NCBI GenBank assembly: GCA_003725745.1
Contig: RHDP01000001.1
Span: forward strand, 3,611,001 to 3,675,000
Direction of reading: 5' to 3'
From: Streptomyces sp. I6
Lineage (GTDB): Bacteria; Actinomycetota; Actinomycetes; Streptomycetales; Streptomycetaceae
Length of the DNA stretch: 64,000 bases
The translations under genes were made by a program, and so were the position numbers. This document shows, one piece after another, positions 1,086 through 23,093 of the stretch (position 1 is its first letter; each line of letters opens with the position of its first letter). The notes under the pieces are model-generated. The model saw only the letters and a list, made by a program, of their open reading frames with translations. It was not told the DNA's origin and made no database searches.

Positions 1086-2533
1086 GTGTCACGCAACAGG
1101 TCCACCAGGGGCAACCCCAGCACCAGCGTCGCCGGTGAGCCGGCGGCGGTCTACTGCCGCATATCCCAGGCGGATGACGACGACCAGACGGGCGTCGACC
1201 GCCAGGAGCGCATCTGCCGCGAGATCGCTGAGCGCCGGGGCCTGGTCATCAACCCCGCCCACGTCTTCGTGGACAACAGCCGCTCCGCCTGGAGCCGCAA
1301 GCGGAAGCGGCCCGGCTGGGACCGGCTGCTGGAGGAGGCCCGGAACCGAGGCTTCCGGCACATCATTGCCTACCACCCCGACCGGCTTATGCGGCAACCC
1401 CGGGACTTGGAGGAGCTACTCCAGGTCTCCGACGACCACGCGATCACCCTCCACGGCGAGGCGAACCGGCGGGACCTCGCCGACCCCGACGACCGCTTCA
1501 TCCTCCGCATCGAGGTCGCGCACGCATGCCGCTCCTCGGACGACACCTCACGGCGGTTGAAGTCCGCGATGCAGGACCGGGCGCGGGAGGGCAAGCCACA
1601 GGGCGGCGTGAGGCGGTTCGGCTACGACAAGGGCGGGATGACGATCGTCGAGGAGGAGGCCGACATCGTCCGGGAGGTGTTCGACCGCTACCTGAAGGGC
1701 GAAGGCGCGGCACCCATCGCGAAGGACCTGCACGGGCGGGGTATCCGCACGGCTGGCGGCAAGGCATGGAACAGCGGCACCGTCCGTGCGCTGCTCGACT
1801 CCCGGCATGTCGCCGGAATCCGCATGCACCAGGGCGAGGAGGTCGGCCCGGCACCTGGCCCGCGATCATCGACGCAGGTGTGTGGGCGGAGGTGCGGATG
1901 CGGCGCGAGTACCGGTCGGCGGTGTACCGGGAGGCGCTCAGCAAGCCCGCGCAGCGCTACTACCTGTTGCGTGGCCTGGTGATGTGCGGGCGGTGCGGGA
2001 CGCTGATGTCTGGTACGGCGAAGGGCACCGGGCCGGTCTACCAGTGCAACCGCCGGGGCCGGAACGACGAGAAGAAGTGCACCCGGTCGGTCATGGCCCA
2101 GACGCTGGAGGACTTCGTCGTCGACGCCGCGGTCGAGCTGCTCGGCAAGCTGCGCGTGGACGGGCGGCTCGCCAGCAGCAACCTCTCCGAGAGCGTGACC
2201 GAGGAGCTGGGGGACGACCAGCGGCTGCTCGGCGAGCTGAACGAGATGTGGACCGCGAAGGAGATCTCCACGGCGGAATACCGCAAGATGCGCAAGGAGA
2301 TCACCGACCGGATCGCCAAGGCTCAGCGCAAGGTCGTCGTCCGGCCGATGGTGCTCCTCGACGGCCTTACGGGAGCTGGTGCGCGGGCCGCCTGGGAGGC
2401 AGAGGACATGACGGACGAGCGGCGCAACGCGGTGCTGCGGTTCCTGTTCTCCGGGGTGGTCATCGACGAGCCGAAGAAGTTCGGCCGGTACATGGACTGG
2501 GACCGGATCAGCATCGAGCAGAACCCGCTGTAG
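1086..2533 (+). CDS. Large serine recombinase (site-specific integrase)
   Basis: The N-terminal resolvase domain has VYCRIS with nucleophile Ser about residue 27 and the usual arginines (VDRQER, YHPDRLMR). A recombinase domain (KPQGGVRRFGYD) follows, then a zinc ribbon from about residue 300 (CGRCG with a later CN and KKC) and a coiled-coil segment. The total of about 482 residues is typical of phage and ICE large serine integrases. GTG at 1086 lies 24 bp from attL. The frame breaks near 1848, where GGCCCGGCACC probably lost one G from a GGG; restoring it joins EEVG to PGTWPAIIDAG. The enzyme presumably catalysed insertion at the GTCGGCTGGGTCA core. A recombination directionality factor is not evident. 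Confidence 0.9.
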
Positions 2534-3829: not shown

Positions 3830-5960
3830 TCGAAGCTTGGGGGCAGCCTGATCCGGGGAACGCCGGTGCGGGTGGCAAGCGGCCCCGACGACGGCGGGAC
3901 GTGCTGGAACTGCCAGACGGCGCGGGCCCGTTCAGCGAGGTCAGAAGGTGTAGCGAGAGCGAACCAGTGGTGGAAGCCCCGTAACAGCGAAGCCGGGTCA
4001 AATCTGGTGGATATGGGCCGGTGCGCAGTGCGTGAAGGCCGGGCCTTGCGGGCCGGTCTTCAACTCCGAAGCCGTTTAGTTCCGTCGGTGGGGAGGCCAC
4101 GTCGAAGGTCTGCGGCGTAGACGTGGCGATGCTGCCGGGGTAGAGCTGGGCGCCTCCCTGACCGATCGATCACATGGTGAACGTGGGAACCATCCGCGGT
4201 CGCCCTCCTGCCGGACAGCCAGTCCCGAGGGCGGGCAGGTCCGTTGCCGGCTGACGGCCGTGGGATGGGGCGGAGGCCCCGTAGTAGTCGCGGGCGTGAC
4301 GACCCGCCGTGGAGGCCGTGAGAGACGGCCGCAGGGCGAAGGGGGCCAGCAAGTCAGCAGTCGAGGCTGCTGGAATATCGGGAGGTTTTCGCTGGTGAAT
4401 ACCGACGAACTGGAGCACGCCTTATATGTGGCGGAGCGACGGGTACTGAATATCCAGACCAAGCTGCACCGTTGGGCTCGTGATGATTCTCGTCGCAGGT
4501 TCGACGATCTCTACAATCTCGTTGCCGATCCCGGTTTCCTTCTGGTGGCCTGGGATCGGGTGAGGGGTAACAAGGGTGCCCGCACGGCTGGGGTGGACGG
4601 GCGCACGGCCCGTTCCGTCGAGGCCGGGCAGGGCGTCGGGGATTTTCTCGGCGGACTGCGGTCGCAGTTGAAGGACCGTAGTTTCCGTCCGATGCCGGTG
4701 CGGGAGCGCATGATTCCGAAGGCAGGCGGGAAGCTTCGCCGTCTGGGGATCGCGACCGTCGCCGACCGGGTGGTCCAGGCATCTTTGAAACTGGTGTTGG
4801 AGCCGATTTTCGAGGCGGATTTCCTCCCGTGTTCCTACGGGTTCCGTCCGAATCGCCGGGCTCATGACGCGGTAGCCGAGGTGCGCTATCTCGCTTCGCG
4901 GCCACGTAAGTACGAGTGGATCGTGGAGGGAGACATCAAGGCATGCTTCGATGAGATTTCGCACTCGGCCCTGATGGACAGAGTGCGGCGTCGAGTCGGG
5001 GATAAACGCGTCCTGGAACTGGTGAAGGCATTCCTCAAGTCGGGCATCCTCGGAGAGGACCGTCTACTACGGGAAACCACCGCCGGAACCCCACAAGGGT
5101 CAGTTCTCTCGCCCCTGCTCAGCAACGTGGCACTGTCGGTCCTGGACGAATACATCGCCCAGGCGCCGGGAGGCCCGGCTGCCAGCAAGGTGGACCGTGC
5201 CAGACGGCACCGCCATGGTCTGCCCAACTACCGTCTTATTAGGTACGCGGACGACTGGTGCCTGATGGTCTTCGGCTCGAAAGCCGATGCCGAGGTCCTG
5301 CGCGAGGAAATCGCTGAGGTCTTGTCCACGATGGGCCTGCGCCTTTCGCCGGAGAAGACCTTGATCACCCACATCGATGAGGGCCTGGACTTTCTTGGGT
5401 GGCACATCCAGCGCCACCGGAAGAGAGGGACCAGGCAGCACTACGTCTATACCTACCCCTCGAAGAAGGCCGTTCAGGCCGTGAAGCGGAAGGTCAAGAT
5501 ATTGTGCCGAGAGGTCGAAGTGAATCAGCCGTTGGATGATCTGTTGCGTCGGCTGAATATGGCGTTGCGGGGCTGGTGTGCTTACTTCCGGCCCGGGGTG
5601 TCTTCCGTGACCTTCGCTTATCTGAGCCACTACACGTGGCAGACGGTATGGCGTTGGATGCGGCGAAAACACCGCCGGTCCACCTGGAAGGAACTCCGCC
5701 GCCGCTATTGCGGCGGCGGATGGTGGCCCGCCAGCGAGTACAGGGAGCTGTTCGACCCCGAGAAGGTAGGCACGACCCGCTACCGATATCGAGGCTCGAT
5801 CATTCCGGCTCCCTGGCCCACCACGGGATGAGGATATCCAACACGCGGCTCATTTCGGGGCTTGTGGAGAGCCCGGTGCATTGAGAGGTGCCCGCCGGGT
5901 TCGGGAAGCGGTCCGGGGAAACGGGCCGGTCGAAAGGCCGGAACCGCGCCCCGGGCCGAC
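3757..5960 (+). mobile_element. Group II intron inserted in the IS3 transposase gene
   Basis: The 5' boundary is GTGCG (3757-3761), the group II consensus, and the 3' end is AC (5959-5960). Removing 3757-5960 restores both the orfA terminus and the -1 frame orfB across GAGCT/TTTCACC. A domain V-like hairpin lies at about 5869-5904 (AGCCCGGTGC, a GAGA-type loop, GCCGGGTTC), followed by a long domain VI stem up to the 3' end. The intron encodes an RT/maturase without an obvious endonuclease domain. It sits right after a small stem-loop (CTCGGC/GCCGAG), as expected for class C-like introns that target hairpins; the class call is inference. Confidence 0.85.
4395..5831 (+). CDS. ltrA: Group II intron reverse transcriptase/maturase
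   Basis: The protein of about 478 residues has the RT0-RT7 blocks: RVRGNKGARTAGVDG, PVRERMIPKAGGKLRRLGI, YGFRPNRRAHDAV, GDIKACFDEISH, TPQGSVLSPLLSN and the catalytic RYADDW. A maturase (domain X) region with LRGWCAYFRPGVSS follows, and the end is GTTRYRYRGSIIPAPW. No HNH endonuclease domain is visible. I prefer GTG 4395 because GGGAGG precedes it by 9 bases, although the frame is open back to 4260. The protein would help the host intron to splice and retrohome. Confidence 0.9.
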   Translation: MNTDELEHALYVAERRVLNIQTKLHRWARDDSRRRFDDLYNLVADPGFLLVAWDRVRGNKGARTAGVDGRTARSVEAGQGVGDFLGGLRSQLKDRSFRPMPVRERMIPKAGGKLRRLGIATVADRVVQASLKLVLEPIFEADFLPCSYGFRPNRRAHDAVAEVRYLASRPRKYEWIVEGDIKACFDEISHSALMDRVRRRVGDKRVLELVKAFLKSGILGEDRLLRETTAGTPQGSVLSPLLSNVALSVLDEYIAQAPGGPAASKVDRARRHRHGLPNYRLIRYADDWCLMVFGSKADAEVLREEIAEVLSTMGLRLSPEKTLITHIDEGLDFLGWHIQRHRKRGTRQHYVYTYPSKKAVQAVKRKVKILCREVEVNQPLDDLLRRLNMALRGWCAYFRPGVSSVTFAYLSHYTWQTVWRWMRRKHRRSTWKELRRRYCGGGWWPASEYRELFDPEKVGTTRYRYRGSIIPAPWPTTG

Positions 5961-6918
5961 TTTCACCGACCGGCCACACACTCGCTCGTAGCGTTCATCG
6001 ACGAGACGCGGGACCGCTTCGGCGGTGTCGAGCCGATCTGCACCGTGCTGGCAGCGCACGGCATCAGCATCGCCCCCTCCACCTACTACGCCGCCAGGAA
6101 ACGCCAGTTGACACCCTCGCCGCGAATCGTGCGGGACGAGGAACTCAAGGAACGGATCAAGGAGGTCTACGAGTCCAACTACCGGGTCTATGGCGCCAGG
6201 AAGATCTGGAGACAGCTCAACCGCCAGGGCCACGAGGTGGCCCGCTGCACGATCGAGCGCCTCATGCGCGAGCTCGGCATCGCCGGCGCCGTCCGCGGCA
6301 AGAAGGTGATCACCACGATGCCGGATCCGGCCGCCGCCCGAGCACCGGACCTGCTCGACCGGGACTTCGTCACCCCGGCTCCGAACCGGACCTGGGTCGC
6401 CGACTTCACACACGTCGCGGCCTGGTCGGGCGTCGTCTACGTCGCGTTCGTCGTGGACACCTTCTCCCGCCGCATCGTCGGCTGGTCCGCGTCGATGTCC
6501 AAGGAGACCAAACTCGTCCTGGACGCCCTGGACATGGGCCTGTGGCAGCGCGACCGCGACGGCCGCCCGCCGACTCCCGGCGAGTTGGTGCACCACTCCG
6601 ACGCCGGGTCGCAATACACCTCATTCCGCCTCGCCGAACACCTCGACGCGGCCCGCATCGCGGCCTCGATCGGCTCGGTCGGCGACGCCTACGACAACGC
6701 GCTGATGGAGTCGACGATCGGCCTGTTCAAGACCGAGGTCATCAAGCCCCAGCGGCCGTGGAAGACGCTCTCGCACGTCGAGCTCGCCACCGCCGAGTGG
6801 GTTCGACTGGTACAACCACCGCCGACTCCACGGTGAGATAGGGCACATCCCGCCCGTCGAATACGAGACCAACTACTACCGAGAAACCACGAAACCCCAG
6901 CTCACAGCCACCAACTGA
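5961..6918 (+). CDS. IS3-family transposase OrfB (DDE integrase domain)
   Basis: The second exon starts at 5961 in frame HRPATHSLVAFIDETRDRF and continues with an HTH_21 region (YRVYGARKIWRQL) and an rve/DDE core: D in WVADFTHV, D in HHSDAGSQY and E in NALMESTIGLFKTE. The frame is disturbed near 6800, where GAGTGGGTTCGAC appears to have one extra G. Correcting it gives EWFDWYNHRRLHGEIGHIPP and a normal stop at 6918. It needs splicing of the upstream intron and a -1 frameshift to be made as OrfAB. Confidence 0.85.
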
Positions 6919-6930
6919 GATCTCTAACGA

Positions 6931-6945
6931 ACCCGGGGCGGTTCA
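6931..6945 (-). repeat. IS3 right terminal inverted repeat
   Basis: ACCCGGGGCGGTTCA is the near-perfect complement of the left end at 3403-3417. Confidence 0.8.
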
Positions 6946-6946
6946 C

Positions 6947-7276
6947 TACGACGTCGAACGCGAGCGGTACCTGCGTCTGCTGCGCGCCTGTGACGTCGGT
7001 GTCTTCCTCCCGCGGATGCGGGAGGGCTGGAGCCGCTGCGCCGCCGAGGCGTTACTCCTCGGCCTTCCCTGCCTCATCCGCCCAGGGGCCGGCCTGGGCG
7101 ACCTCGCCGCACTGGCTCGCCAGCCGGCCCCGGACCTCCGTCGCCTCCCTGCACAGGTCCGGGAGCGTGCGGCGGCACGCCACACCGAGGCCAAGGCGGG
7201 GTACGAGGCCCTGGCCCGGTTCGACCTGAACTACTTCGGCGACGCCTGGGGCAACCTCCTGACGCAGGTCGCCTGA
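6947..7276 (+). pseudogene. C-terminal fragment of a GT-B glycosyltransferase
   Basis: The open frame enters directly from the IS right end and encodes about 109 residues: LLRACDVGVFLPRMREGWSRCAAEALLLGLP contains the E-x7-E motif (EGWSRCAAE) of family 4 retaining glycosyltransferases, followed by a C-terminal helix region. The N-terminal acceptor domain is missing and is not present left of the IS, so the gene lost its 5' end when the IS arrived or by IS-adjacent deletion. An internal ATG at 7016 could give an 86-residue product, but it would lack an active site. It converges on gltX with a 9-bp gap. Confidence 0.6.
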
Positions 7277-7284
7277 CCAGCGGC

Positions 7285-8706
7285 TTAAGCCTGCGCGACC
7301 AGCTTCTTGCTGGCAGCTTCCAGACGGGCCAGCACGCGGTCCCGGCCGAGCAGCTCCATGGACTCGAACAGCTGGAGTCCGATCGTCCGGCCGGTGACCG
7401 CGACCCGGATGGGCGCCTGGGCCTTGCCCAGCTTCAGCCCGTGCTTCTCCCCGACGGCGAGCAGGACGGCCTTCAGGTCGTCCGCCTTCCACTCCGCGAC
7501 GTCGGCCAGCTCGGCGCGGGCGTCCGACAGGATGTCGCCGGCGCCCGCCTTCATCGCCTTGTTCCACGACGCCTCGTCCTCGACCGGCTCGTCGAGGAAC
7601 AGGAAGTCCACATAGCTGGTGATCTCGGAAAGCAGCGCCAGCCGGGTCTGGGCCAGGGAAGCCGCCGCCTCGAAGACGTCCTTGTCGAACGCCTCCGGCC
7701 GCCACGGCGCGTACGGGGCGACGAGCCACGGCGCGCAGGCGGCGGCGAACTGCTCCGGCGACAGGGCGCGGATGTACTCGCCGTTGAACGCCGTCAGCTT
7801 CTTCACGTCGAAGAAGGCCGGCGCGGTGTTGACGTCCTCGATCCGGAAGAGCTGCTCCAGCTCCTCGTACGGCCTGATCTCCCGGTCGTCGCCCGGGCCC
7901 CAGCCGAGCAGCATGAGGTAGTTCACCATCGCCTCGGGCAGGAACCCCTCGGCGAGGTAGTCCTCCAGCGCCACCTTGTCCCGGCGCTTCGACAGCTTCT
8001 GCCGCTTCTCGTTCACGATCACCGGCAGATGCGCCCACACAGGCGCCTTGGCACCGAGCGCCTCCCACAGCAGCTGCTGCTTCGGCGTGTTCGACAGGTG
8101 CTCCTCGCCTCGGATGACCTGCGTGATTCCCTCGTCCAGGTCGTCCACGACGTTGGCGATCAGAAAGACCGGGGACCCGTCACCACGGGCGATCACGAAG
8201 TCCTCGATCGCGCTGTTCGGGAACGCCGGCTCCCCGCGGACCAGGTCGACCACGACGGTCTCCCCCTCGTCCGGCGTCCGGAACCGCAGCGCCCGCCCCT
8301 CCTCGAAGGCCAGCCCCCGGTCCCGGCAGAACCCGTCGTACCCGAGGTGCTCCGACCCCGTGCGCTCCTTCAGCTGCTCCCGGGTGCAGTCGCAGTAGTA
8401 CGCCCGGCCGGCCGCGAAGAGCTGCTGAGCCGCTTCCCGGTGCCGGTCGGCGTTGTGCGACTGGAAGTACGGCCCCTCGAAAGCCGCATCCTCGCCATGG
8501 ATACCGATCGCCGCGAGCGCGCTGATGATGCCCTCGGTCCACTCCGGCTTGTTCCGGGCCGCGTCGGTGTCCTCGATCCGCAGCACGAACCTGCCGCCGG
8601 ACTGTCGCGCCACCGCCCAGTTGTAGAGAGCGGACCGTGCGCCACCGACATGGAACATGCCGGTCGGGGACGGGGCGAAACGAACGCGAACCGGGGCAGT
8701 AGACAT
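7285..8706 (-). CDS. gltX: Glutamyl-tRNA synthetase carried on the island
   Basis: This is a complete class I synthetase of 473 residues. The HIGH-region variant is [19 protein letters not shown] near residues 9-27 and the KMSKS equivalent is KLSKRRDK near residue 240. The glutamate-specific fold segments ([37 protein letters not shown]) and an anticodon-binding C-terminal helical domain are present. It ligates Glu to tRNA-Glu in the cytoplasm. Its place inside the att-bounded element implies a second copy beside a chromosomal gltX. Possible roles are resistance to a synthetase-directed inhibitor or toxin, or simply captured cargo. The frame is clean. Confidence 0.9.
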
Positions 8707-9174
8707 GCGCTCCAGGGTACCGACGCTGGACCTACGCCCCGGACCACTCGGCCTACCCCCACCGACGTTTCTCGGCCGTCCTCACCTCCTATTCGTCCGT
8801 CATCTTCTTCCTTTCCCTTACGCGCTCCACGCTGCCGCGGATCGCAGGGGCGGCCCGGCGAATGCCTGCTGCTGCCGCTCGCGGTGAGGGCCGCCGAGGT
8901 CGGGCATGAGGTCGTCGGCGTCGGATGTGAGATGGTCCTCTGTTTCTTTCGTGTGAGGCGGCAGTAAGGCAAGGGTCCGCAGGGTTCCAGCCACCTAGAC
9001 TGGGCATTCTCACTGGCCCCGTTCGCGGTCAGCTGTACACGCCCGTCTCGGTGGACTTGCTGGCTTGTTCCTGGGATGTTCGTACGCAGAGACGGACTCG
9101 CTAGCACGTTCGAGTCCGGCCTGCCGCGAGTGCAGCCAAGCGCTCGGCGGGCGGTGCGCACGTATGGAGGATGA
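8707..9174. other. Divergent promoter region between gltX and the methyltransferase
   Basis: This 468-bp gap separates two divergently read genes, so it should hold both promoters. I see no gene in it. It is less GC-rich than the surrounding core DNA (for example 8785-8825), in line with element backbone. The methyltransferase ATG at 9175 follows GGAGG at 9166-9170. Confidence 0.4.
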
Positions 9175-10449
9175 ATGACGGATCTGCAGGCTGTCGAGAT
9201 TTGCGCAGGGGCGGGCGGCCAGGCCCTCGGGTTGGAGCGCGCCGGATTCGGGCACGCCCTGGCCGTTGAGCTCGACATGCACGCCGTCGCCACACTGCGC
9301 AAGAATCGGCCAGACTGGGATGTCCGGCAAGGCGATGTGGCTGATCCGGAGGTCTGGAAGCCCGAGAAGTTCAGCGGGATGGATCTGATCGCCGGCGGAG
9401 TGCCGTGCCCGCCCTTCACCATCGCCGGTAAGCAGTTGGGGGCAACCGACGAGCGCGATCTTTTCGCCTGGGCCGTGCGCCTGGCTGAGAGGGCCAAGCC
9501 CAAGGCGCTCCTACTGGAGAACGTCCGGGGGCTCAGCGCCAATCGCTTCGCGGCCTATCGGCAGAACGTCCTCGACACCCTGCAGAGCGCTGGCTACGTC
9601 GCTCAGTGGAAGCTCCTCCACGCAGCCGACTTCGGAGTGCCGCAGCTGCGCCCCCGTTTCGTGCTCGTAGCGCTACGCCCTGAATACGCTGAGTACTTCA
9701 CATGGCCTGAACCGCTGGCGGCCAAGCGGCCCACAGTGGGCGAAGCCCTTTGCGACCTGATGGCCGCTAGAGGCTGGGAGGGCGCTAAAAGCTGGGCTGA
9801 GAAGGCCAACGACATCGCCCCCACCATCGTCGGAGGGTCGAAGAAGCACGGTGGGGCCGACCTAGGACCTACGCGCGCCAAGGCTGCTTGGGCGAAGCTG
9901 GGGGTGGACGCTCTCGGTGTCAGCGATCAGGCCCCAGAGCCTGGCTGGAAGCCGGCTCAAGGCAAGCCAGGACCGAAACTGACCGTGGAGATGGTGGCCC
10001 GGATCCAGGGCTGGAAGCCCGAGGACGAGTGGGTGTTCGAGGGCCGGAAGACCAGTACGTACCGGCAGGTAGGCAACGCCTTTCCGCCGCCTGTCGCCGA
10101 GGCGGTGGGCCGGTCCATCGCACGGGCGCTGCGGCAGGAAGGGCCCCGCACCGAGCTGGTAGAGACAACAGAGGTAGTCCACGACCCCGTCTACAAGCTG
10201 CTTCGGGGGGTGGAGCGTCCCATCGGGGTCGACCAGATCATCAGCCGGTTGGAGAAGACCGGGCAGCACATGTCAGAGCCGGAAGTCGAACGGCACATTG
10301 CCCACCTCGAGCACGACTTCGTGATCCACAGGGTGAAGCGCTCCAGCGGAGCCCTCAGCTACAGGCTCGGCGAGTTCAAAGCTTTCGTCGGCCAAGAGGG
10401 CCATCAGAGGCATGAACTCTTCTCCCTGAACCAGGCGAAGATCAGCTGA
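9175..10449 (+). CDS. DNA (cytosine-5-)-methyltransferase, C-terminally extended
   Basis: Dcm-type methyltransferase of 424 residues. Motif I is EICAGAGGQALGLERAGF, motif IV GGVPCPPF with catalytic Cys78, motif VI LLENVRG, motif VIII QLRPRFVLVAL, and motif X YRQVGNAFPPPVAEAVG. It transfers methyl from SAM to C5 of cytosine. Residues ~345-420 after motif X (GVDQIISRLEKTGQHMSEPEVERHI ... SYRLGEF) look like an added winged-helix DNA-binding domain. It faces vsr and the NaeI-like endonuclease, so it is the likely protecting methylase of that system. Site GCCGGC is inferred from the endonuclease family only. Confidence 0.9.
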   Translation: MTDLQAVEICAGAGGQALGLERAGFGHALAVELDMHAVATLRKNRPDWDVRQGDVADPEVWKPEKFSGMDLIAGGVPCPPFTIAGKQLGATDERDLFAWAVRLAERAKPKALLLENVRGLSANRFAAYRQNVLDTLQSAGYVAQWKLLHAADFGVPQLRPRFVLVALRPEYAEYFTWPEPLAAKRPTVGEALCDLMAARGWEGAKSWAEKANDIAPTIVGGSKKHGGADLGPTRAKAAWAKLGVDALGVSDQAPEPGWKPAQGKPGPKLTVEMVARIQGWKPEDEWVFEGRKTSTYRQVGNAFPPPVAEAVGRSIARALRQEGPRTELVETTEVVHDPVYKLLRGVERPIGVDQIISRLEKTGQHMSEPEVERHIAHLEHDFVIHRVKRSSGALSYRLGEFKAFVGQEGHQRHELFSLNQAKIS

Positions 10450-10465
10450 CAGCCGCCGCGGGCGG

Positions 10466-10969
10466 TCAGGGGGCCTTCCGGTCACGCTTCGTGGCTGCGG
10501 CCTCCTGCCGCCGGGCGGTCACTGCCTCGATGACGGTCCTGGCACACGCCTGTGGCTCGAGGTGCTCCCAGAAGCGGAGCACCAGCCAGCCCGCCTCCGC
10601 GAGGCGGTTGTCCGTGTCCCGGTCGCGCTTGATATTCCGGCCGATCTTGTCTTCCCAGTACGGCCGGTTCGTCTTGGGCATCACGAAGTGCTCTGGGCAG
10701 CCGTGCCAGAAGCAGCCGTCGATGAAGACGGCCACCTTCACTGGGCGGAAGACCATGTCAGCCGTGCGGCGCATCTTCGGAAGCGGCTTGGCCGCCACCC
10801 GGTAGCGCAGTCCAGCGGCGTGGACGAGCGAGCGGAGGAGCAGCTCGGGTGCGGTGTCGCGGTTCCGGTTACCGAGCATGCTCCGCCGGTTCGCGGCCGA
10901 GGAGGCCCAGGAACCTTCGGGCCGTGCCCACTGCCCGGCCTGTTGCTCTGGTTGCGCTTGCTCGCTCAT
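10466..10969 (-). CDS. vsr: Very short patch repair endonuclease (Vsr)
   Basis: The 167-residue protein has the Vsr hallmarks: NRRSMLGNRNRDTAPELLLRSLVHAAGLRYRV, the catalytic Asp region RTADMVFRPVKVAVFIDGCFWHGCP, the zinc ligands in CFWHGCPEH, and WEDKIGRNIKRDRDTDNRL. Vsr nicks beside T:G mismatches made when 5-methylcytosine deaminates. It suits the neighbouring C5 methyltransferase. Its start overlaps the end of the upstream NaeI-like gene by 4 bases (ATGA), so the two are translationally coupled. Confidence 0.92.
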   Translation of the reverse strand: MSEQAQPEQQAGQWARPEGSWASSAANRRSMLGNRNRDTAPELLLRSLVHAAGLRYRVAAKPLPKMRRTADMVFRPVKVAVFIDGCFWHGCPEHFVMPKTNRPYWEDKIGRNIKRDRDTDNRLAEAGWLVLRFWEHLEPQACARTVIEAVTARRQEAAATKRDRKAP

Positions 10970-11919
10970 ATCTCCGGCAGTTTGGGGACGGCTTCCTCTG
11001 GGTCATCCGGCCTCGCGACAACCCATTCCTGCCCGCCCAGTTCTACTCTCGGTGCGTCCCCGTGGCGGAGACCGGCAGCCGCAAGCCGGGCGCTCACCGA
11101 CTCACCGGGACCAGGTACGGGCAGGCCGAGCGCTTCGGCAATCCGGCCGTGGCTGGAGTAATGGCCCAGGATAACGATGCCCCGGGGTTGGAGCCTTGAG
11201 CGCGATCCGCCGTTGTAGCGGACGCGTTTCATGTAGTCCTCCTGCATCGCCACTGTAGCGACGACAGTGCGGCTGATACGGCGGCCCTGAGCTCTCACGA
11301 AGAGATCATCCACCCTGCGTTGGCCGCTCCTGTGGGAGAAGATCGCCTTGATATCAGCCTCGGAGAGCCGCAGCAGCATGTTCTCCTGGAGAGGAGCCCG
11401 GTGGAACAGCCACCGCACTGCGGCCCGCCCTGCGGCGTTCAGTGTCTTCTTGGCGTCCCGGTTGCCGCCGTTGTTCAGCCTCTCAGGCAGGGCGCGCACG
11501 AGGCCGGCGGACCATCTGGACTCTTCATCGCTGGCCCAGACGACAAGCAGCAGGTGGCCGAGGGCCTCTGGCGGGACCATCCACCCGCCGAGCGTCTGCG
11601 AGTACTTGCAGTCGACGTCGGTGCCGGCGATCGAGTAGTCCATGCTGAGGCCGTCGGCGAAGCCGAACTCGCGCTGCATGTTGATCTCGATCAGCGTGCC
11701 CAAGTGGGCCTTCTCGGTCTTGTACAGCTGGTCCCACCGGAAGCGACCGGTGTGCTGGCCATCCAGCAGCATGTCGATGCTCCGCCGGATCGCCCCTGCG
11801 GTCCTCCTGCCGTGCGGGTCGGCAGCGAGAATCTGCTGCGCAACGACATCCAGTTCCGGATCGCCTGGTTCGTCAACAGGCCACAGGGCTGCCTGCGTGC
11901 TCATCGCTTCGCCGTCCAC
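10966..11919 (-). CDS. NaeI-type type II restriction endonuclease
   Basis: The 317-residue protein matches NaeI in layout. The N-terminal Endo domain has DGQHTGRFRWDQLYKTEKAHLGTLIEIN and the catalytic DYSIAGTDVDCKYSQ (Asp94, Asp103, Lys105), with the D-x8-D-x-K spacing I recall for NaeI (86/95/97). A C-terminal Topo-like domain follows. NaeI is a type IIE enzyme cutting GCCGGC after binding two sites. The position I align with NaeI Leu43, whose change to Lys makes a topoisomerase, is Leu51 here, so endonuclease activity is expected. It is coupled to vsr downstream and faces the methyltransferase. Confidence 0.85.
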   Translation of the reverse strand: MDGEAMSTQAALWPVDEPGDPELDVVAQQILAADPHGRRTAGAIRRSIDMLLDGQHTGRFRWDQLYKTEKAHLGTLIEINMQREFGFADGLSMDYSIAGTDVDCKYSQTLGGWMVPPEALGHLLLVVWASDEESRWSAGLVRALPERLNNGGNRDAKKTLNAAGRAAVRWLFHRAPLQENMLLRLSEADIKAIFSHRSGQRRVDDLFVRAQGRRISRTVVATVAMQEDYMKRVRYNGGSRSRLQPRGIVILGHYSSHGRIAEALGLPVPGPGESVSARLAAAGLRHGDAPRVELGGQEWVVARPDDPEEAVPKLPEI

Positions 11920-11989
11920 GGCAGGACTCTATCCGGGCTCCGGACGGCAGGGCAGCCCGGTCCGACGAGGACACTGGCAGACTTCAGCT

Positions 11990-12178
11990 GTGATACGCGA
12001 ACCAGCTGAACTGCAGATCGATGACGAGGGCCGTGTGTCCCTGCCGCTTGGGCTCCTGGCGGAGGCGGGCCTGGATACGGGCGGCCGCATCCTCGCCTTC
12101 AGCGACGGGGACGGGCGCATTGTGCTGCAGCGGGAGGCGGACGCCGTCGAGGCGCTGCTGCGAGACGGAACTCTGTGA
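11990..12178 (+). CDS. Small AbrB/SpoVT-like DNA-binding protein
   Basis: GTG 11990 opens a 62-residue protein: AELQIDDEGRVSLPLGLLAEAGLDTGGRILAFSDGDGRIVLQRE is the swapped-hairpin AbrB fold used by MazE-type antitoxins and transition regulators. It lies between the NaeI-like gene (minus, start 11919) and the helicase (minus, stop 12197), in the opposite direction. No toxin gene adjoins it. A plausible job is to control the restriction operon from the 70-bp divergent gap at 11920-11989. Confidence 0.75.
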   Translation: MIREPAELQIDDEGRVSLPLGLLAEAGLDTGGRILAFSDGDGRIVLQREADAVEALLRDGTL

Positions 12179-12196
12179 GTCGCAGTTCTGCTGGCG

Positions 12197-14016
12197 CTAG
12201 ACGGCTCCCGCCCCGAGATGCTCCAGGAGTGCTCGCACGTCCGCGGCGTCCATTCCTGCGGCCAGCGGGACTTCCTCTTCCGGATCGCCCAGCTGCTGCA
12301 CCTCCGGGTCGTCGAGGATCCGCCCCATGAAGTCCAGTTTCTGCGCCAACCGAACGGCTACCACCTCGTCGACCGTACCTTCGGCCGTAAGGACCGTGAC
12401 CCGCGTCTCCGTGTCCAGCGCGAGGCCGAGGCGGTGAATGCGGTCGAGGCTCTGCAGGAACCGGCCGGCCTGGAAATCACGGTCCACATAGACCGCGTCA
12501 TGGCACACCTGGTGGAGGCTGATGCCCTCGCCGAGGGTCGCCGGATTGGAGATGAGGACGCTGCAGTCCGGATCCTTCCGGAAGCGGCGCAACTCAGCTT
12601 CCCGGTCGGGGGTCCCCCCGTGCACAGCCGCTGGCTGGAACGGCGCCAGCAGTGCTTGGAGCGAAGTGATACTGCGGACGAAGCTCGTCCAGATCAGAGT
12701 CTTGCGTCCGGCCTCAGCATTGGCGGACACGATGGATAGGGTTTCCTGGTACTTGGGCGGCAGCTCGTAGTCGGGGAGTCGGCGGAGGAGCATGGAGAGC
12801 GGATCCCCCTCGGCCACCTCCAGCGGTGGGACGCGGAAGTACAGCGGCTCGTAACGCGTTGAGCCCGCCACGAGCAGAGCCGGGCTGGTGGCGGCCATCA
12901 GCAGGCGCAGCGCTGTCTTGCCGAGCGATTCGAAGTCGGTTCGGTCGGCCGCCGCCCTGGCTGAGAGCTTCCCCACCAGAGCGTCGTAGATCTCGCGGTG
13001 AAGCGGCGGCATCGGGATTCGGCGCACCCGCGTCTCCATGGGAGGCAGTCCGAGCTCCTCTTTGGTCGTCCGCGTATACAGGGGGCGCAGTACTCGGCTG
13101 GCATGGGCGAGGTCGCCGCCGTCGACAGCTTGAGTGACCACGCGCCGCCCGTGCCCCGGCCAGACGAAGGAGAGAAGGTTCTCCAGGTCCTTGGCGCCAT
13201 TGGGTGCAGGAGTGCCGCTGAGGATCATCCGGACACGGCTGAGGGGGCCCAGTGCCATGCAGGCGGCACCGTAAACCCCGGCCCCGCCGAGCTTCATTCG
13301 GTGGGCCTCATCGAGGACGAGCATCGCTGGGGCCGCCTCCAGCCACTGGGACAGCCCAGCGAGGGCCCGGTCCAGACGCTCGTAATTGACGAGGAGGATG
13401 TCTGCTGAGGCCGGGACCGTCTTGCCGAGCACCTGCACGTCGAGCCCGGTGGCGAAGCACTGCTCCGGCTCCCATTGCCATGCTTCGTAGGCGGACTTCG
13501 GGCTCACCACAAGCATGCGGGTTACGGCTCCGCGCTGGCGGAGTGCAGAGAAGACGGCGAGGGAGACACGGGTCTTGCCGGCGCCGGGCACACTGAAGTT
13601 GGCTCCGTGGCGGACCGAGAGAAGGCGGGCTATGTCGCGGAGCTGGAAAGGGGTAAGAGGGCCGATCCAGTCGTCGCTCAGCAGGGCCGGGACCGACTCC
13701 GGCTCGACGGTGTCCTCGTCGGGCGAGCCGCTGAGGAGCCTCTCCGCCGTGTCCGCCGTGTCGAGCATCTCGGTGACAAGGAGACGGAAGTCTTCCTCCC
13801 ATACAACGCTGTCCGGTCGTGCCCAGGCCCGAGCGCGCTGATACTGGCGAGGAAGCTATCGATGGGGACAGCTGCCGAGAGCCTGTCGGTCATCCGGCCG
13901 CTGGGGAAGCTGGCGATCAACTGCCCCAGCGCACCACGGCACTCGGGCACAGTCCGCAGCGCTGCCTGCGTGCGAGTGATGTCGAAGCCGATCGTCAGAC
14001 TGGGTCCGTCGGCCAC
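12197..14016 (-). CDS. SNF2-type DEAD/DEAH-box helicase of the defence cluster
   Basis: About 606 residues when one probable indel near 13845 is corrected (SFLA to QYQRARAWARPDSVVWEED, one C missing). Walker A is FSVPGAGKT (~residue 139), Walker B is VLDEAH (~234) and motif III is LSGTPAPNG; the C-terminal helicase lobe has TLIWTSFV, NPATLGEGISLHQ and RFLQSLDRIHRLG with the arginine finger. These are SF2/SNF2 motifs of DNA translocases in restriction and defence systems. GTG 14016 abuts the stop of the ParB-like gene, so the two are coupled. Its partner nuclease is not fused and may be the HNH-like protein. Confidence 0.8.
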
Positions 14017-15432
14017 TTAGCGCGCCTTCCCGAACGTCTCGAGGAGCCAGGTCACGCCGTCTCCTGGGTGCTGCACAGTGCGCCTGGTCTCGATAGCGAG
14101 CTTCTCCAGTTTCTGCCGTAGATCAGTGACGGCGTCGTCGAACGACTCCTCATCCAGGCTTCGCTGCGCGCGGGACATGACCAGGTCCGTAACGCATTGC
14201 TCGATGTCGCGGCCGGCATCGGCAAGGCGGGCAGGTGCTGCCTGCTTGCGCTTCTTGATACGCGCGTCGCGGCCGGCATCGCTGATGGCCTGATCCATCG
14301 CCACGCGCAGCCGCACGACCTCCTTCTCTGCCTCAGCCGCAGCCTCCGGCGGAGCCGCGCTGCCTGGCCGGCTGACAGCTCGCGCGTGCAGGACGGCGTC
14401 TGTCAATGCCTTGGCTGCACCAAGGGAGGCAGACGGACCCTTCACAGCCCGACCCAAACCGGGGATGGCCACCCCCGCCGAAGCTTCAGCTGGGGCTTCG
14501 CTGTCCGGCAGCGTCTTGGAGAGGTAGCGGTCGCGGAAGTCGTGGTCGATGAACCGGACATCGGTCTTGGCGAAGCCCAGGAGCATGGCCGCCAGCCGGT
14601 TCTCCAGCAGGAGCTCCGCCTTCTCCGGGTTGACCGCGTACTGCTTGGCGTATGCGCGGTGCAGTTCGCGGAACTTCTCCGCCTGGTCCTCGAAAGCGAC
14701 CAAAGACAGCTGCTCGTCGGCCGTCTTGCTTCGCTCGATGAGCGACTCGATGCGGGCGAGCACCCACTGGTCCTGTCGGCAGCGCTCCGCGGTCGTGCGG
14801 AAGGTAGCGGCGATGACAGCGAGGGGCGTGCCTTGATCCACTAGCTCCTGAACCGCGAGCAACCGGTTGATGTAGGAGTAGTCCCGCCGGTGCTCCTTGC
14901 GCAGCTGGAGCGACAGTTCGATCGCAGCGATGTCCTGCCAGTCGCAGGAAGGCGGCAGTACGGCTACACGCATGGCGTGGTTGGGGCCGAAAAGCTGCAT
15001 CAGAGCAGCGCGCCGGGTATTGCCGTTGACGAGGATGCCTTCGTGAGTGATCAACCCGGGATCAGTCTGGCCGTACTCCTTCAGGCTCGCCATCAGTTCG
15101 TCGAACTCAGGATCAGTCCGGGCGGGGTCTGCCGGCAGCACCTGCAGAAGTCGGTCCAAGTACGCCTGGCTGTCACTGCTCCAGGGGTCGTCCGCGAGCG
15201 CTTCCGCCTGCTTCGGGTCGTGGCCGGCCTGTGCGCGGATGCGGTGGGTTGCCGGGTTGTAGTAGAGGCTGCCCACTGGCACCTGGATGACTTCCAGATG
15301 CTCCGGCCCGCCCCGCCACTCGACAGTGAAGGTCTCGCGGGGACCGCCGCCGACCGCGATCTCCTCCAACCGGGACCGCACAAGGGCGCGGTTCTCCTCG
15401 GCACCCGGCGGCAGACCGTAGCCCTTGGCCAT
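14017..15432 (-). CDS. ParB/Srx-fold protein (ParB N-terminal-like domain)
   Basis: The 471-residue protein contains a ParB/sulfiredoxin-like domain around residues 45-150. IQVPVGSLYYNPATHRIRAQ opens it and TDPGLITHEGILVNGNTRRAAL holds the conserved G-x-x-R nucleotide-binding box (GNTRR in place of GERR). A helical region and a charged C-terminal coiled coil follow. ParB-fold proteins bind CTP or ATP, and some are nucleases. It lacks the chromosomal ParB HTH and linker, so I do not regard it as a partition protein. It sits between the HNH-like gene (58-bp gap) and the helicase (0-bp gap). Confidence 0.7.
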   Translation of the reverse strand: MAKGYGLPPGAEENRALVRSRLEEIAVGGGPRETFTVEWRGGPEHLEVIQVPVGSLYYNPATHRIRAQAGHDPKQAEALADDPWSSDSQAYLDRLLQVLPADPARTDPEFDELMASLKEYGQTDPGLITHEGILVNGNTRRAALMQLFGPNHAMRVAVLPPSCDWQDIAAIELSLQLRKEHRRDYSYINRLLAVQELVDQGTPLAVIAATFRTTAERCRQDQWVLARIESLIERSKTADEQLSLVAFEDQAEKFRELHRAYAKQYAVNPEKAELLLENRLAAMLLGFAKTDVRFIDHDFRDRYLSKTLPDSEAPAEASAGVAIPGLGRAVKGPSASLGAAKALTDAVLHARAVSRPGSAAPPEAAAEAEKEVVRLRVAMDQAISDAGRDARIKKRKQAAPARLADAGRDIEQCVTDLVMSRAQRSLDEESFDDAVTDLRQKLEKLAIETRRTVQHPGDGVTWLLETFGKAR

Positions 15433-17923: not shown

Positions 17924-19092
17924 TCAGGACGCCAGGTGTTGCAGCCGACTGGCAGCCTCGTCGAGAACGTCGTTCCTCTTGCAGAAGGTGAAGCGGACCT
18001 GGGTGCGGCCGGCGTCGGGGTCGTCGTAGAAGACGGAGTTGGGGATGGCGACGACGCCGCAGCGTTCGGGGAGGGTGCGACAGAAGGCGTAGGCGTCCTT
18101 CTCGCCGAAGGGGGTGATGTCGGTGGTGATGAAATAGGTGCCCTCCGGCTGGTAGACCTCGAAGCCGACCGCCCGCAGGCCGTCGCCGAGCAGGTCGCGC
18201 TTGCGCTGCAGGTCGGCACGGAAGCCGTCGAAGTACGAGTCGGGGAGGCGGAGAGCTTCGGCGACGGCGTACTGGAAGGGGCCCGCGCTGACGTACGTCA
18301 GGTACTGCTTGGCGGTGCGGACAGCGGCGATGAGCGGGGCGTCCGCCATAGCCCAGCCAACCTTCCATCCGGTGAAGGAGAAGGTCTTGCCGGCGGATGA
18401 GATGGAGACGGTGCGCTCGCGCATGCCGGGGAGCGTGGCGATCGGGACGTGGGCGGTGCCGTTGAAGACCAGGTGCTCGTACACCTCGTCGGTGACCACG
18501 AGCAGGTCGTGCTCGACGGCGAGCGCGGCGATGGCGCTCTGCTCATCGGCGGTGAGGACCATCCCGGTCGGGTTGTGCGGGGTATTGAGGAGCAGGAGGC
18601 GAGTGCGCGGGTGATCTTGGATCGCAGCTCGTCCAGGTCCGGGCGGAAGGATGGGGCGCGTAGGGTGAGCGGGACGCGCTTCGCGCCGGCCATGGCGATG
18701 CAGGCCGCGTAGGAGTCGTAGAAGGGCTCGAAGGCGATCACCTCGTCACCGGGCTCCAGCAGCGCGAGCATGGACGCCGCGATCGCCTCCGTCGCGCCCG
18801 CGGTGACCAGGATCTCCGTGTCCGGGTCGAGGGTCAGGTCGTAGAAGCGGTGCTGGTGGTCGGCGATCGCCTGGCGGAGCTCCGGGACGCCCGGGCCTGG
18901 CGGGTACTGGTTGCCGCGGCCGTCGCGCAGCGCTCGTACAGCGGCCTCACGTACGGACTCCGGGCCGTCCGTGTCCGGGAAGCCCTGCCCCAGGTTGATC
19001 GCGCCCGTCGCTGTCGCCAGGGCCGACATCTCCGCGAAGATCGTCGTCCCGAGCCCGTCCAGCCTGCGGTTCAGCAGTGGCCTGGTGTTCAT
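17924..19092 (-). CDS. Class I/II aminotransferase: element-borne homologue of the disrupted host gene
   Basis: A full-length (~389 residue) fold-type I PLP aminotransferase, homologous end to end to the split chromosomal gene (GTTIFAEMSALA, INLGQGFPDTDGP, NQYPPGPGVPELR, TAGATEAIAAS, PHNPTG, VTDEVYEHL, PLP-lysine region SSAGKTFSFTGWKVGW, then KQYLTYVSAGPFQY). I judge identity at roughly three quarters by eye. It probably acts on a keto-acid/amino-acid pair (DapC- or methionine-aminotransferase-like). ATG 19092 follows GGTGGAG and is 13 bp after the hsdS-like stop, so it belongs to that operon. A one-base gap near 18610 splits the printed frame; I treat it as a probable indel, though real decay is possible. 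Confidence 0.85.
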
Positions 19093-19105: not shown

Positions 19106-20393
19106 TCACTCGGGTACCCGTTGAGTTTGCAGGCCCCATCCTGACTCATCGAGGCTCTCCATCCCACGTGGTGCCGGCAGGCTGAGGCCCTGTTCCTCCG
19201 GCTCTCGGAGCACACCGGCTTTCGCCGTGATGTCGCGCAGGAGAGCGTCTCGGAGTGCGTGCAACGTCGCGATCTTGGATACGAGGAGTTGCGCCGTGGA
19301 ATTCAGAGGCTCGGCGACCCGGCGGAAGTCGGCGCGCGTGAAGTGATCCGGCCAGGTGACGGGCAGGGACTTCAGCCGGAGGGCGGAGATCTCGCGGCGG
19401 TTCTGGCCCTGGGCGAGTTCTGCGATCGCCTTGCTCCGGCTTCTGAGCTCGTGGAGAAGCCACCATGTGTCCTCGTCGTCCAAGGGCCGCACGGCGACGA
19501 CGCTTCTGAGGGGGTCGCCGCCCGGCTGGACACGGCGATGTGCGCGCCGTCGGAGCGGGTGCTGAGCATGAGCGTGCCCGGAGGGTGGACCGCGCCGTCG
19601 CGCGCCGGCCCGGTCAGGCGGAACCGGTGGACGTGGGGCACGGGAAGGTCGTAGAGGTCTCTGGGGGCGATCACGTCGACGGTCGGATCCGCAAGTGCCG
19701 GTGGGAGTGAGCTTTCGGAACCGGTACCTGACTTCAGACGGGCGACCTTTACCAGCGGTCGTGAGCCCCAGGGATGACCTGAATCCACCACCACGTTGTG
19801 GAGTGCGTCGGCCAGTTCCAATGCCTTGCGCGCGGTCAGCTGGTAGACGGCGGCCGTCTCCTCGATGAGGGTGAAGGCCCGGTGGTAGTGAGTGATGACG
19901 TCGGGCGGCGGCAGTGGGAACAGCATGCGCCGGAGGGTGTCGAGGCTAACGGTCGGTTCGACGTGGGCCGTCACATCCTCATCGATCCGGGCCTTCGCCG
20001 TGGGCGTCTGCAACCAGATGTGCAGCCACTGCACAAGGCGCGGCTCCGCGCGGATGATGCCGATCGACCGGGCTGCGGGCCACCCCGCGTGCTCGGAGGT
20101 GACCAGCGCGGAATCCCCCGCGCGTCTGACGAGTACGACCGCCAGGTCACCCTCCCTGAGGCTGGCACGGGTACGTGGAGGTGCACCTGGAACCCACTCG
20201 TTGGTCCGGGGGAGAGGATCTTGCCGTTCCGGACGAAGGTCGAGCTGACCACCCCTGGGGTGCTCTCTGCGGTCTTGTCGTCGAGGAAGCCACAGGCTGT
20301 GTGGATGTTATGGCCCAGTCGTTCGAGCCCGCGGAGAGTGGCCGTCGGCCATGCCGACGCACCCGTGTCGGCCTGAGACGTAACGGCTCCCAT
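19106..20393 (-). CDS. Specificity (HsdS)-like subunit
   Basis: About 429 residues once two probable one-base losses (near 20166 and 19520) are repaired. The pieces include STFVRNGKILSPGP, LREGDLAVVLVRRAGDSALVTSEHAGWP, LVQWLHIWLQTPTAKARI, TVSLDTLRRMLFPLPP and VSKIATLHALRDALLRDI, which fit HsdS target-recognition domains with their 'L-x-x-I-P-L-P' and coiled-coil signatures. Its ATG overlaps the methyltransferase stop (TGATG), so the pair is coupled. It should direct the N6-adenine methyltransferase to its site. No HsdR-type translocase is adjacent. Confidence 0.7.
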
Positions 20394-21895
20394 CAGATCT
20401 CCTCCAAGGCGTCCAGCAGTCGCAGTTCCAGGTCGTGCATGTGGGCCAGGTGATCGGTCAGCTCTACCTTGAGTCGCTCGACGTGGCTCCGCGTGTCCCG
20501 CTCCGGGCTCGGCGGTTCCACGGCGTACGAAGTCGGCATGAGGCTGTACTCGTGGCTCGTGATCTCCTTGGTGGAGCAGCTTTGGGACCAGCCGGGGACG
20601 TCGCTGTACGGCAACGCTGCGGCACCGCTCTCGGAGAGGCCCCGCCAGGCTGCGAGAGTGGTCACGATTCGGGCCGTGTTCTCCTCGCCCAGCCGCCGTG
20701 ACCTTGAGTCCGGGACCCGTTCGTAGGCGCGCCGCGCGTTGATGAACAGCACCTGGCCGCGACGGTCCGAGGAACCCCAGCCGGGTCGTGCGCGCTTGTC
20801 CTTGTTGAGCACCCACAGACAGGCTGTGGCCTTGGAGGGGCCGAACACGCGAGGCGGTAGCGCGATCACGCACTCGACAAGGTCGCTACGCAGCAGACGT
20901 TCGCGGAGTCTTCGGGGCGCGGACTGTCGGCTGGTGGCCATGCTGTCGGCCATCAGGAAGACGGCTCGTCCCGCCGGTGCCAGTGCATGCGCGATGTGCT
21001 GGATCCAGGCGGCGTTGGCGGAGCCCCGGGGCGGGGGTTCCTCCGGCCACCGCGGATCGGCGGCGGTGACGGAGCGCAGTGGCCGGCCGTCGTCGGGTTC
21101 GGCGTCGCCCTCGGGTGCCCAGGCGGATTGGTTGAAGGGGAGGTTGGCCAGAACGATGTCGTGGCGCTCGGGCTCGGGCTGCGCGAGGCTGTTCCCGGGC
21201 GGGAAGATGCGACCCCTGATGCCCCGAACCGCGAGGTTCATATGGGCCACCTGAGAAGAAGGGGCGTGCTGTTCCTTACCTTGCAGGAACATGGTCGGGT
21301 TGAGTCCGACACGCTCGTGGACGTAGCGATGGCTCTCGACCAGCAGACCCCCTGAGCCGCAGACCGGGTCCAGCACGCTGTTGCCGTCCTGCGGGACCGC
21401 CGCGCCGACCATGAGACGCGCCAAGTCGCCGGGTGTGAAGTAATTGCTGCCGTCGGCCTGGGCCGCTGAGAGGTCTCGCAGACACTTGTCGAGCAGCGGG
21501 GAAACCTGCTCGATGGAGCCGATGGCATGGATGAGAGCAGGCAGATGCCTGGTGGAGCTGGCTGGGAGTACGGGCACGAGACGCATCGCTCCCGCGTCCG
21601 GGTCCTCGATGGAGGGGAGCCAGTGGGCCAGGCACTCGATCACGGCCCTGCGGACTTCCGAAGGATTTTCCGTAGCGCGATTCACCAACCACGCCCATGT
21701 CGGAACCCCGGGCCTGGCGGCGTCCCGCGGAATCCGGCTCAGGTACAGCAGGCCGAGGACGAGCCGAGCCGCCTCGGCCGAGTGCATGAACCGGGAGAGC
21801 TGAGTGAGCTGTTGGGACATCTGCTCAAGCGTCTGATCGGACGGGGAGGGGGGCCCGGTCCGCGCTGCGCGCCCTCGGGCCGTCGTGTCGCTCAT
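20393..21895 (-). CDS. N6-adenine DNA methyltransferase, HsdM-like
   Basis: The 500-residue protein has an N-terminal helical domain, then NYFTPGDLARLMV, SAM motif I DPVCGSGGLLVESHRY, the catalytic box ANLPFNQ (NPPF-type with Leu for the first Pro), and VFLMADSMATS, LVECVIALPPRVFG. These place it with type I/BREX-related gamma-class methyltransferases that methylate adenine N6. It is preceded by a small membrane protein gene (ATGA overlap at 21892-21895) and followed by the HsdS-like gene. No restriction subunit is visible in the operon, so it may be a solitary methylation module or need another effector. Confidence 0.85.
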   Translation of the reverse strand: MSDTTARGRAARTGPPSPSDQTLEQMSQQLTQLSRFMHSAEAARLVLGLLYLSRIPRDAARPGVPTWAWLVNRATENPSEVRRAVIECLAHWLPSIEDPDAGAMRLVPVLPASSTRHLPALIHAIGSIEQVSPLLDKCLRDLSAAQADGSNYFTPGDLARLMVGAAVPQDGNSVLDPVCGSGGLLVESHRYVHERVGLNPTMFLQGKEQHAPSSQVAHMNLAVRGIRGRIFPPGNSLAQPEPERHDIVLANLPFNQSAWAPEGDAEPDDGRPLRSVTAADPRWPEEPPPRGSANAAWIQHIAHALAPAGRAVFLMADSMATSRQSAPRRLRERLLRSDLVECVIALPPRVFGPSKATACLWVLNKDKRARPGWGSSDRRGQVLFINARRAYERVPDSRSRRLGEENTARIVTTLAAWRGLSESGAAALPYSDVPGWSQSCSTKEITSHEYSLMPTSYAVEPPSPERDTRSHVERLKVELTDHLAHMHDLELRLLDALEEI

Positions 21896-22313: not shown

Positions 22314-23093
22314 TCAGCAAGCCTTGACCCAGCCGACCTTCCAGCCGGTGAACGAGAACGTCTTGCCGGCCGAGCCGATGGTCACGGTGCGTTCGCGCAT
22401 CCCGGGGAGGGTCGCGATCGGCGTGTGCTCGCCGTCGAAGACCAGGTGCTCGTAGACCTCGTCGGTGACGACCAGCAGGTCCCGCTCGGCCGCCAGCTCC
22501 GCCACGGCCGCCAGCTCCTCACGGCCGAGGACCGTACCGGTGGGGTTGTGCGGCGTGTTCAGCAGGATGACGCGGGTGCGGTCGGTGACGGCGTCGCGCA
22601 GCTCGTCCAGGTCCAGGACGTAGGCGCCCTCACGGGGCCGGAGTGTGACGGGTACGCGTGTGCCGCCCGCCATGGCGATGCAGGCGGCGTACGAGTCGTA
22701 GTACGGCTCCAGGGCGACGACCTCGTCGCCGGGCTCGACGAGGGCGAGCAGTGAGGCGGCGATGGCCTCGGTGGCGCCCGCCGTGACCAGCACCTCGGTG
22801 TCGGGGTCGAACCCGAGGCCGTAGCGATCCCGCTGGTGGGCGGCGATCGCGGTGCGCAGCTCGGGCACGCCCGGGCCGGGCGGGTACTGGTTGCCGCGGC
22901 CGTCGCGCAGCGCGCGCACCGCCGCCTCCCGCACCTCCTCGGGGCCGTCCGTGTCCGGGAAGCCCTGGCCGAGGTTGATGGAGCCGGTGCGCACGGCCAG
23001 CGCGGACATCTCGGCGAAGATCGTCGTGCCGAACTCGGCGAGGCGGCGGTTGAGCAGCGGCCGGGGGCCCGCTGTGCGTCCTGGAGCTGTCAT
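22314..23093 (-). pseudogene. 5' fragment of the interrupted class I/II aminotransferase
   Basis: Encodes the N-terminal ~255 residues, including GTTIFAEMSALA, TAGATEAIAAS, LNTPHNPTG, VVTDEVYEHL and the PLP-lysine region GSAGKTFSFTGWKVGW, then VKAC and a stop created by element DNA. The rest of the gene is at 625-1077. The large and small C-terminal strands are missing, so the product is probably inactive. I recall that the S. coelicolor orthologue (SCO3658 region) holds the attB of actinophage TG1, which makes this gene a known landing site for serine integrases. ATG 23093 or 23102 could be the start. Confidence 0.9.
22325..22337 (+). repeat. attR core of the integrated element
   Basis: Second copy of TGACCCAGCCGAC, identical to 1050-1062. 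Right of it the sequence is the 5' part of the aminotransferase gene; left of it is element DNA that turns the reading frame into VKAC and a stop. Confidence 0.85.

Follow-up and report, generated by a model that had tools for sequence, protein, structure and literature searches.

This locus raises the question of why an element that interrupts a host aminotransferase gene should itself carry a full-length copy of that gene, and whether the altered attachment core within the copy has a meaning. The locus was analysed in the window, i.e. the entire stretch of 64,000 nt from Streptomyces sp. I6, and compared with related loci in other genomes.

The element and the gene it interrupts

The mobile element in the window comprises 21.3 kb and is bounded by two exact 13-nt cores, TGACCCAGCCGAC. 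When the whole window was searched, matches with zero mismatches were found solely at 1050-1062 and 22325-22337 (both plus strand). The first is attL, the junction between the element and the displaced host 3' part according to an attL alignment of 12 elements, and the second is attR, likewise supported by an alignment across elements. The host gene split in this way is a minus-strand, DapC-like gene for a PLP aminotransferase, whose 5' and 3' parts are separated by the element. The displaced 3' part (625-1062, minus strand) pairs with the gene of the close relative G379 in the tree of 3' halves (support 0.98). The truncated 5' part (22325-23093, minus strand) has NF005855 as its best NCBIfam model and scores below the whole-protein cut-off, as expected of a partial protein; it stops shortly past what we take to be the PLP-lysine motif. 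The integrase adjoins attL, and the core repeats at the two ends are short and direct. Its gene (1086-2533, plus strand) encodes a Resolvase domain (PF00239, 2.7e-21) followed by a Recombinase domain (PF07508, 6.4e-14; Pfam scan), which is the layout of a large serine integrase. In all 12 elements of this type (see below) the integrase start and the displaced 3' part are about 27 nt apart, the value for the window being taken from its own coordinates.

The cargo aminotransferase, the putative rescue copy, is found at 17924-19092 on the minus strand. It was proposed from the sequence alone that the element carries a replacement of the gene it breaks, and this holds, as the cargo aligns with both host parts, with nucleotide identities of 77.7% (5' part) and 76.4% (3' part). 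The cargo of the window is 93.7% identical at the nucleotide level to the open cargo copy of G402 (the same genome as G375), which exceeds the NF005855 cut-off and has Rv0858c, an N-succinyldiaminopimelate aminotransferase, as its nearest solved relative by sequence. A backup paralogue elsewhere in the same genome was considered and rejected, since, apart from split gene and cargo, the genome gave only short weak matches. The median dN/dS was 0.183 for the cargo copies (66 pairs) versus 0.178 for host genes (n = 12, from 34 plain host genes). Judged by these substitution ratios, the cargo copy is under purifying selection and selectively maintained.

Relative to the host gene, the cargo copy of the window is one base short near 18605-18610, and the integrase gene of the window also changes frame, near 1855. 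If the gap were real, the cargo gene would be a dead relic, non-functional in strain Streptomyces sp. I6. We consider this improbable. The assembly is 87% complete, and the comparison with G379 gives 61 one- or two-base gaps over 19.3 kb aligned (coding and non-coding sequence together). A gene-like G379 frame of 420 amino acids, one of 20 such frames in the stretch, is clearly frame-shifted in the window near 31035, and G379 frames matching the window near 23.8 and 36.1 kb appear frame-shifted too. Furthermore, the cargo copies other than that of the window are open across the aligned length in 11 of 11 cases. The frame breaks of the window are probably assembly indel errors. A real break had been named beforehand as an observation that would speak against rescue; the break seen is limited to the window copy, in an assembly prone to indels.

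Other genes are present in the element. An N6-methyltransferase module lies between the rescue copy and attR (19372-21895, minus strand); its relatives in G393, G398 and G399 occupy the corresponding position. A NaeI-type restriction system (window 9175-11919) consists of a cytosine methylase, a Vsr endonuclease and a NaeI endonuclease, and a group II intron reverse transcriptase/maturase is encoded at 4260-5831. A second glutamyl-tRNA synthetase gene, gltX (7285-8706), is 52% identical to the chromosomal GltX, which has an open frame elsewhere in the genome; relatives of the element GltX at 88-96%, whole or in pieces, were found in the genomes of G392, G398, G399 and G402. A Pfam scan of 19 ORFs or pieces of ORFs, a subset of those in the element, gave no match to transfer, replication or virion functions.

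Conservation of the arrangement among relatives

A contig scan of genomes with the N-terminal part of the integrase as the query yielded 29 loci. At 11 of these (L117-L126 and L140) the integrase is 88-95% identical over nearly the entire query, and the aminotransferase 3' part directly adjoins the integrase at each of them, i.e. in 12 of 12 cases when the window is included. Genomes present under two labels (G375 = G402 and G276 = G401) were counted once each. All 12 genomes contain one additional full-length aminotransferase copy near attR, which settles in the affirmative the question whether related elements carry the gene at all, and the copy is oriented like the truncated host gene throughout (12/12). 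The distance between the copy and the truncated gene is about 0.1 kb in eight genomes and 3.2-3.3 kb in the other four, which have a methyltransferase module in common at this place. A single contig carries both integrase and copy in 7 of the 12 (window, G392, G394, G398, G399, G400, G402), and the two are on separate contigs in five (G393, G395, G396, G397, G401), where the element is seen from its two ends only. The five elements seen whole besides that of the window (G392, G398, G399, G400, G402) all have the integrase and the cargo; four of them have GltX matches, that of G398 being a piece of 191 residues only. Apart from integrase and cargo aminotransferase, gene content differs between the elements. 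Decayed integrases adjoining displaced 3' pieces were found at two further loci (L142, L145). The occurrence of the same arrangement in 11 named relatives excludes chance. The cargo copies share descent, and 12 copies do not amount to 12 independent events.

It is extremely unlikely that the copy is ordinary accessory cargo, acquired by horizontal transfer and unlinked to the insertion site. The elements do bear other housekeeping-type genes, e.g. the second gltX, but the copy matches exactly the interrupted gene in 12 of 12 cases, its place beside attR and its orientation are constant (12/12), and a sister clade of integrases carries its own, different target gene (see below). Two possible sources of the cargo were examined and rejected. 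For a phage origin, no relative with at least 60% to either half was found in 50,697 phage records. For a plasmid origin, the best plasmid match reached 66.7% with no gene annotated beneath it, and no integrase is annotated within 16 kb around this match.

At attR, the host 5' part continues into element sequence in 12 of 12 cases and the gene is not completed across the att site. Delivery of a 3' half was rejected as the mechanism in the window for this reason. Regulated gene integrity, in which the split gene serves as a switch that is restored on excision, is described in the excerpts used of PMC10111431 for integrases disrupting their targets without replacement sequence at attP. As an explanation of the present locus it is very doubtful, because the element already bears a full-length gene that appears to be under purifying selection, and some host parts are decayed: the truncated gene of G401 has a stop at the core and the displaced part of G402 (= G375) contains a stop as well.

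Codon changes at the attachment core in two target genes

At the position homologous to the att core (18349-18361, minus strand), the rescue copy reads TAGCCCAGCCAAC, and 3 of 13 bases differ from the core. Core matches with up to three mismatches are found 50 times in the window versus 47 times expected by chance; the pattern alone is therefore not unusual, and the altered core is meaningful because it lies at the homologous position. The three changes proposed in the sequence-only reading are present in the window as claimed, but only one of them is family-wide, namely C to T at 18359, the third position of a valine codon (18359-18361), which reads GTT instead of GTC and is GTT in 12 of 12 copies. 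The other two amount to a Val-to-Ala change occurring in two of the 12 copies (window and G399).

GTT is rare at this place in host sequences. At the invaded attR sites, the core valine codon is GTC in ten cases, GTG in one and ATC in one, and GTT in none of the 12; the core codons of the two-piece truncated half of G402 and of the truncated half of G401 (GTC) were read in the att-site alignment. None of 55 host-type native genes has GTT at the core valine, and when the 5' halves of plain host genes are counted over, 6 of 648 valine codons are GTT. The set of 55 excludes six genes of which one half or both are of the cargo type or close to it (L063, L065, L075, L087, L088, L097), and two of the six, L063 and L097, have GTT. 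Over all native intact genes, GTT was counted in 2 of 62, i.e. in G057 (L063) and G256 (L097).

A second recoded codon, Gly GGA versus GGC (18368-18370, minus strand), is located three codons before the core valine and ends in A or T in 11 of 12 copies; the host codons of this column end in C (43), G (8), A (3) or T (1). Among 252 conserved codon columns of the cargo set, only two are A/T-ending in at least 75% of the copies, both at the att core, and the remaining A/T-ending columns reach at most 7 of 12 copies. The probability that both columns fall within the 7-column core block is P = 0.0007; like the P value for the second target gene below, it treats columns as independent and ignores shared descent, and blocks and thresholds were chosen after the data had been seen. 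At a looser threshold of at least 50% A/T, five columns were obtained for the aminotransferase, two of them in the core block. The codon comparison shows synonymous substitutions at the att site of the putative rescue copy, and the recoded copy may well be a poor integrase substrate. A case that counts against this reading is the insert at 2218-12864 of L081 (G080), whose att arms are the same and whose rescue copy is full-length but reads GTC at the core. A search of the G080 genome gave no integrase match at E 1e-20; possibly the recoding was lost after the integrase had disappeared.

A similar pattern was observed in another gene. At 14 loci with integrases 77-80% identical, the target is the gene of an LLM-class oxidoreductase, whose nearest models are of the F420 type with scores below their cut-offs. 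Twelve of the 14 loci were searched (L132 and L134 left out), and each of these 12 genomes contains, besides the displaced 3' part, a single second copy whose open frame is longer; the two share a contig in nine. At the att core, the copies have CCT/CCA (11/12), AAT (8), AGG (9) and CAT (8), whereas the displaced host parts have CCG (11/12), AAC (12), CGG/CGC (12) and CAC (10) as the same codons. Rare codons occur in at least 50% of the copies in 8 of 202 columns, and five of these eight are clustered in a single block at the att core (P about 1e-7, with columns treated as independent and the block chosen afterwards). At a threshold of at least 75%, counting 0.75, three columns were found, two of them in the block.

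Common descent from a single atypical ancestor, protection against other phages targeting this stretch or reduced pairing with the host gene might also keep the att codons of a genuine rescue copy as they are. The cargo copies do group together in trees, and another integrase user is known at this site: the attB of phage TG1 is located in a putative succinyldiaminopimelate transaminase gene (PMC6549336, in the part used). Such other reasons are nevertheless unlikely to account for the pattern. At a median dS of 0.47, no other A/T-ending column is kept beyond the 7 of 12 copies stated above, the second target gene has a like pattern at its own att core, and recoding so local has little effect on pairing with the host gene. 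An immune rescue copy would be expected to show just this, with synonymous recoding focused on the att core in both target genes.

A more distant group of integrases served as a control. In six genomes with integrases at 64-66%, attL lies in the 3' tail of a third gene, which looks like a small transporter gene; in a seventh genome of this clade, G030, the integrase is located elsewhere. No second match to the 40-aa tail was found in 6 of 6 genomes, though so short a query could miss a copy that has diverged strongly. The single match in the control genomes shows that a second copy is not automatic, and a rescue copy as a universal rule of the whole integrase family was rejected on the same grounds.

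Apparent gene replacement at the locus and relation to known systems

In trees of both the 5' and the 3' halves, the cargo copies cluster, though not as a pure clade. The cargo group of the 5' tree, for which halves > 600 nt were used (the two-piece truncated half of G402 being left out), also includes the truncated halves of G394, G396 and the Actinacidiphila genomes G395 and G400, as well as the G403 gene, the G080 copy and the G057 gene; the cargo copies of the 3' tree are interspersed with several halves that are displaced or native. The truncated 5' half of the window pairs with G379 (support 1.00), and the remaining ones are dispersed among host genes or branch off close to the base of the cargo group. 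The invaded 5' halves of G394 and G396 fall with the cargo copies yet read GTC at the core and lack the recoding, which counts against the proposed role of the recoding. In G057 (L063), the sole copy found is of the cargo type in both halves, GTT-coded and next to the gene that usually adjoins the locus; a cargo-type gene has apparently taken over the host locus. The intact gene of G256 (L097) has GTT at the core.

Of 392 genomes sampled from the genus, 32 gave at least two matches to the aminotransferase 3' part (E 1e-40). One of these (G158) is due to a distant paralogue, and the window with two elements already counted accounts for three more; a displaced 3' piece plus a full-length gene is present in 28 of the 392. 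The attL arm could be tested for pieces beginning at the core (n = 27), and in 23 of these the preceding sequence outscores every one of 20,000 background positions; of the four others, at least two look one base off. From these scars and attL arms, the element family has probably hit this gene many times. An exchange of 3' halves is visible at L074, L076 and L082, where the tree places the displaced half with a sister species' gene and the intact gene bears a different 3' half. At L076 (G316, 6419-14998), the intact aminotransferase gene precedes a series of displaced 3' pieces, which belong to two sequence types and record repeated insertions.

Taken together, we regard it as probable that the element breaks the gene, carries a maintained copy of it and keeps this copy a poor substrate by recoding its att site. 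The insert-and-rescue interpretation of the sequence-only reading is supported by copies throughout the family and by att-core recoding in two target genes. The serine integrase appears to insert the element at a conserved site inside the host aminotransferase gene, which is thereby destroyed, and the complete copy near attR would keep the enzyme available; purifying selection points to such a supply of enzyme function. The synonymous att-site changes would weaken the action of the integrase on the copy, and the two parallel cases suggest that recoding blocks the integrase. A weakened site would stop the element from recombining with its own rescue gene or from re-invading rescued cells; the simplest benefit of recoding would be that the element's own attP is kept from recombining with the internal copy. 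In the aminotransferase clade, host transcription may reach the copy, which has the same direction at about 0.1 kb distance in 8 of 12 genomes. The sister integrase clade would act alike on the LLM oxidoreductase gene. There, the relative orientation could be read in 4 of 12 genomes, with a second 5' part at most 1.5 kb from the copy; in all four the directions are opposite, so that read-through from the host promoter is not a general rule. With somewhat better than even confidence, we propose a general strategy of an actinobacterial integrase clade, in which the rescue is matched anew to each target, made immune by recoding and later able to take over the host locus; the gene of G057 and the att-arm scars found in many species go with this proposal.

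According to the excerpts used of PMC10111431, attP usually brings replacement sequence for the target gene, with regulated gene integrity as the exception, and satellites with an intact backup copy are mentioned. The 3' replacement borne by attP (icd, tRNA and other targets) also restores the entered gene, and displaced fragments mark old ends (PMC10111431, same excerpts); unlike there, the present copy is separate, full-length, away from attP and recoded at the att site. HE-PICI, helper-embedded satellites with captured late genes, target prophage late genes, and a recoded att site is absent from their description in these excerpts (PMC10111431). Phage TG1 likewise uses a serine integrase, with its attB in the same stretch of the same kind of gene, and the printed primer, taken as the S. 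avermitilis site, extends into bases of the present core (PMC6549336, in the part used). In 254 records, no phage integrase reached at least 60% to the integrase of the window, the best among the matches listed being about 37%.

Engineered rescue drives use a recoded rescue. In Cleave-and-Rescue and home-and-rescue drives, the target gene is destroyed and the rescue is linked (PMC7951863, PMC7968924, excerpts). Unlike these, the present element has no nuclease and the insertion itself does the damage; the likeness lies in the destroyed target and the linked rescue, and a drive-like, biased inheritance would be hypothetical here. Among open-licence PMC papers, judged by titles and the starts of abstracts and with subscription papers outside the scope, none was found to describe a recoded rescue copy, and the excerpts used of PMC9513070 and PMC5385486 contain nothing like it.

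If the proposed reading is true, the element is a natural counterpart to engineered recoded-rescue designs, and its natural att-site variants are on offer for direct measurement of integrase specificity. It would show an integrative element exploiting a highly conserved protein-coding site without loss of function, and would make it easier to understand why a gene has been replaced repeatedly at one Streptomyces locus.
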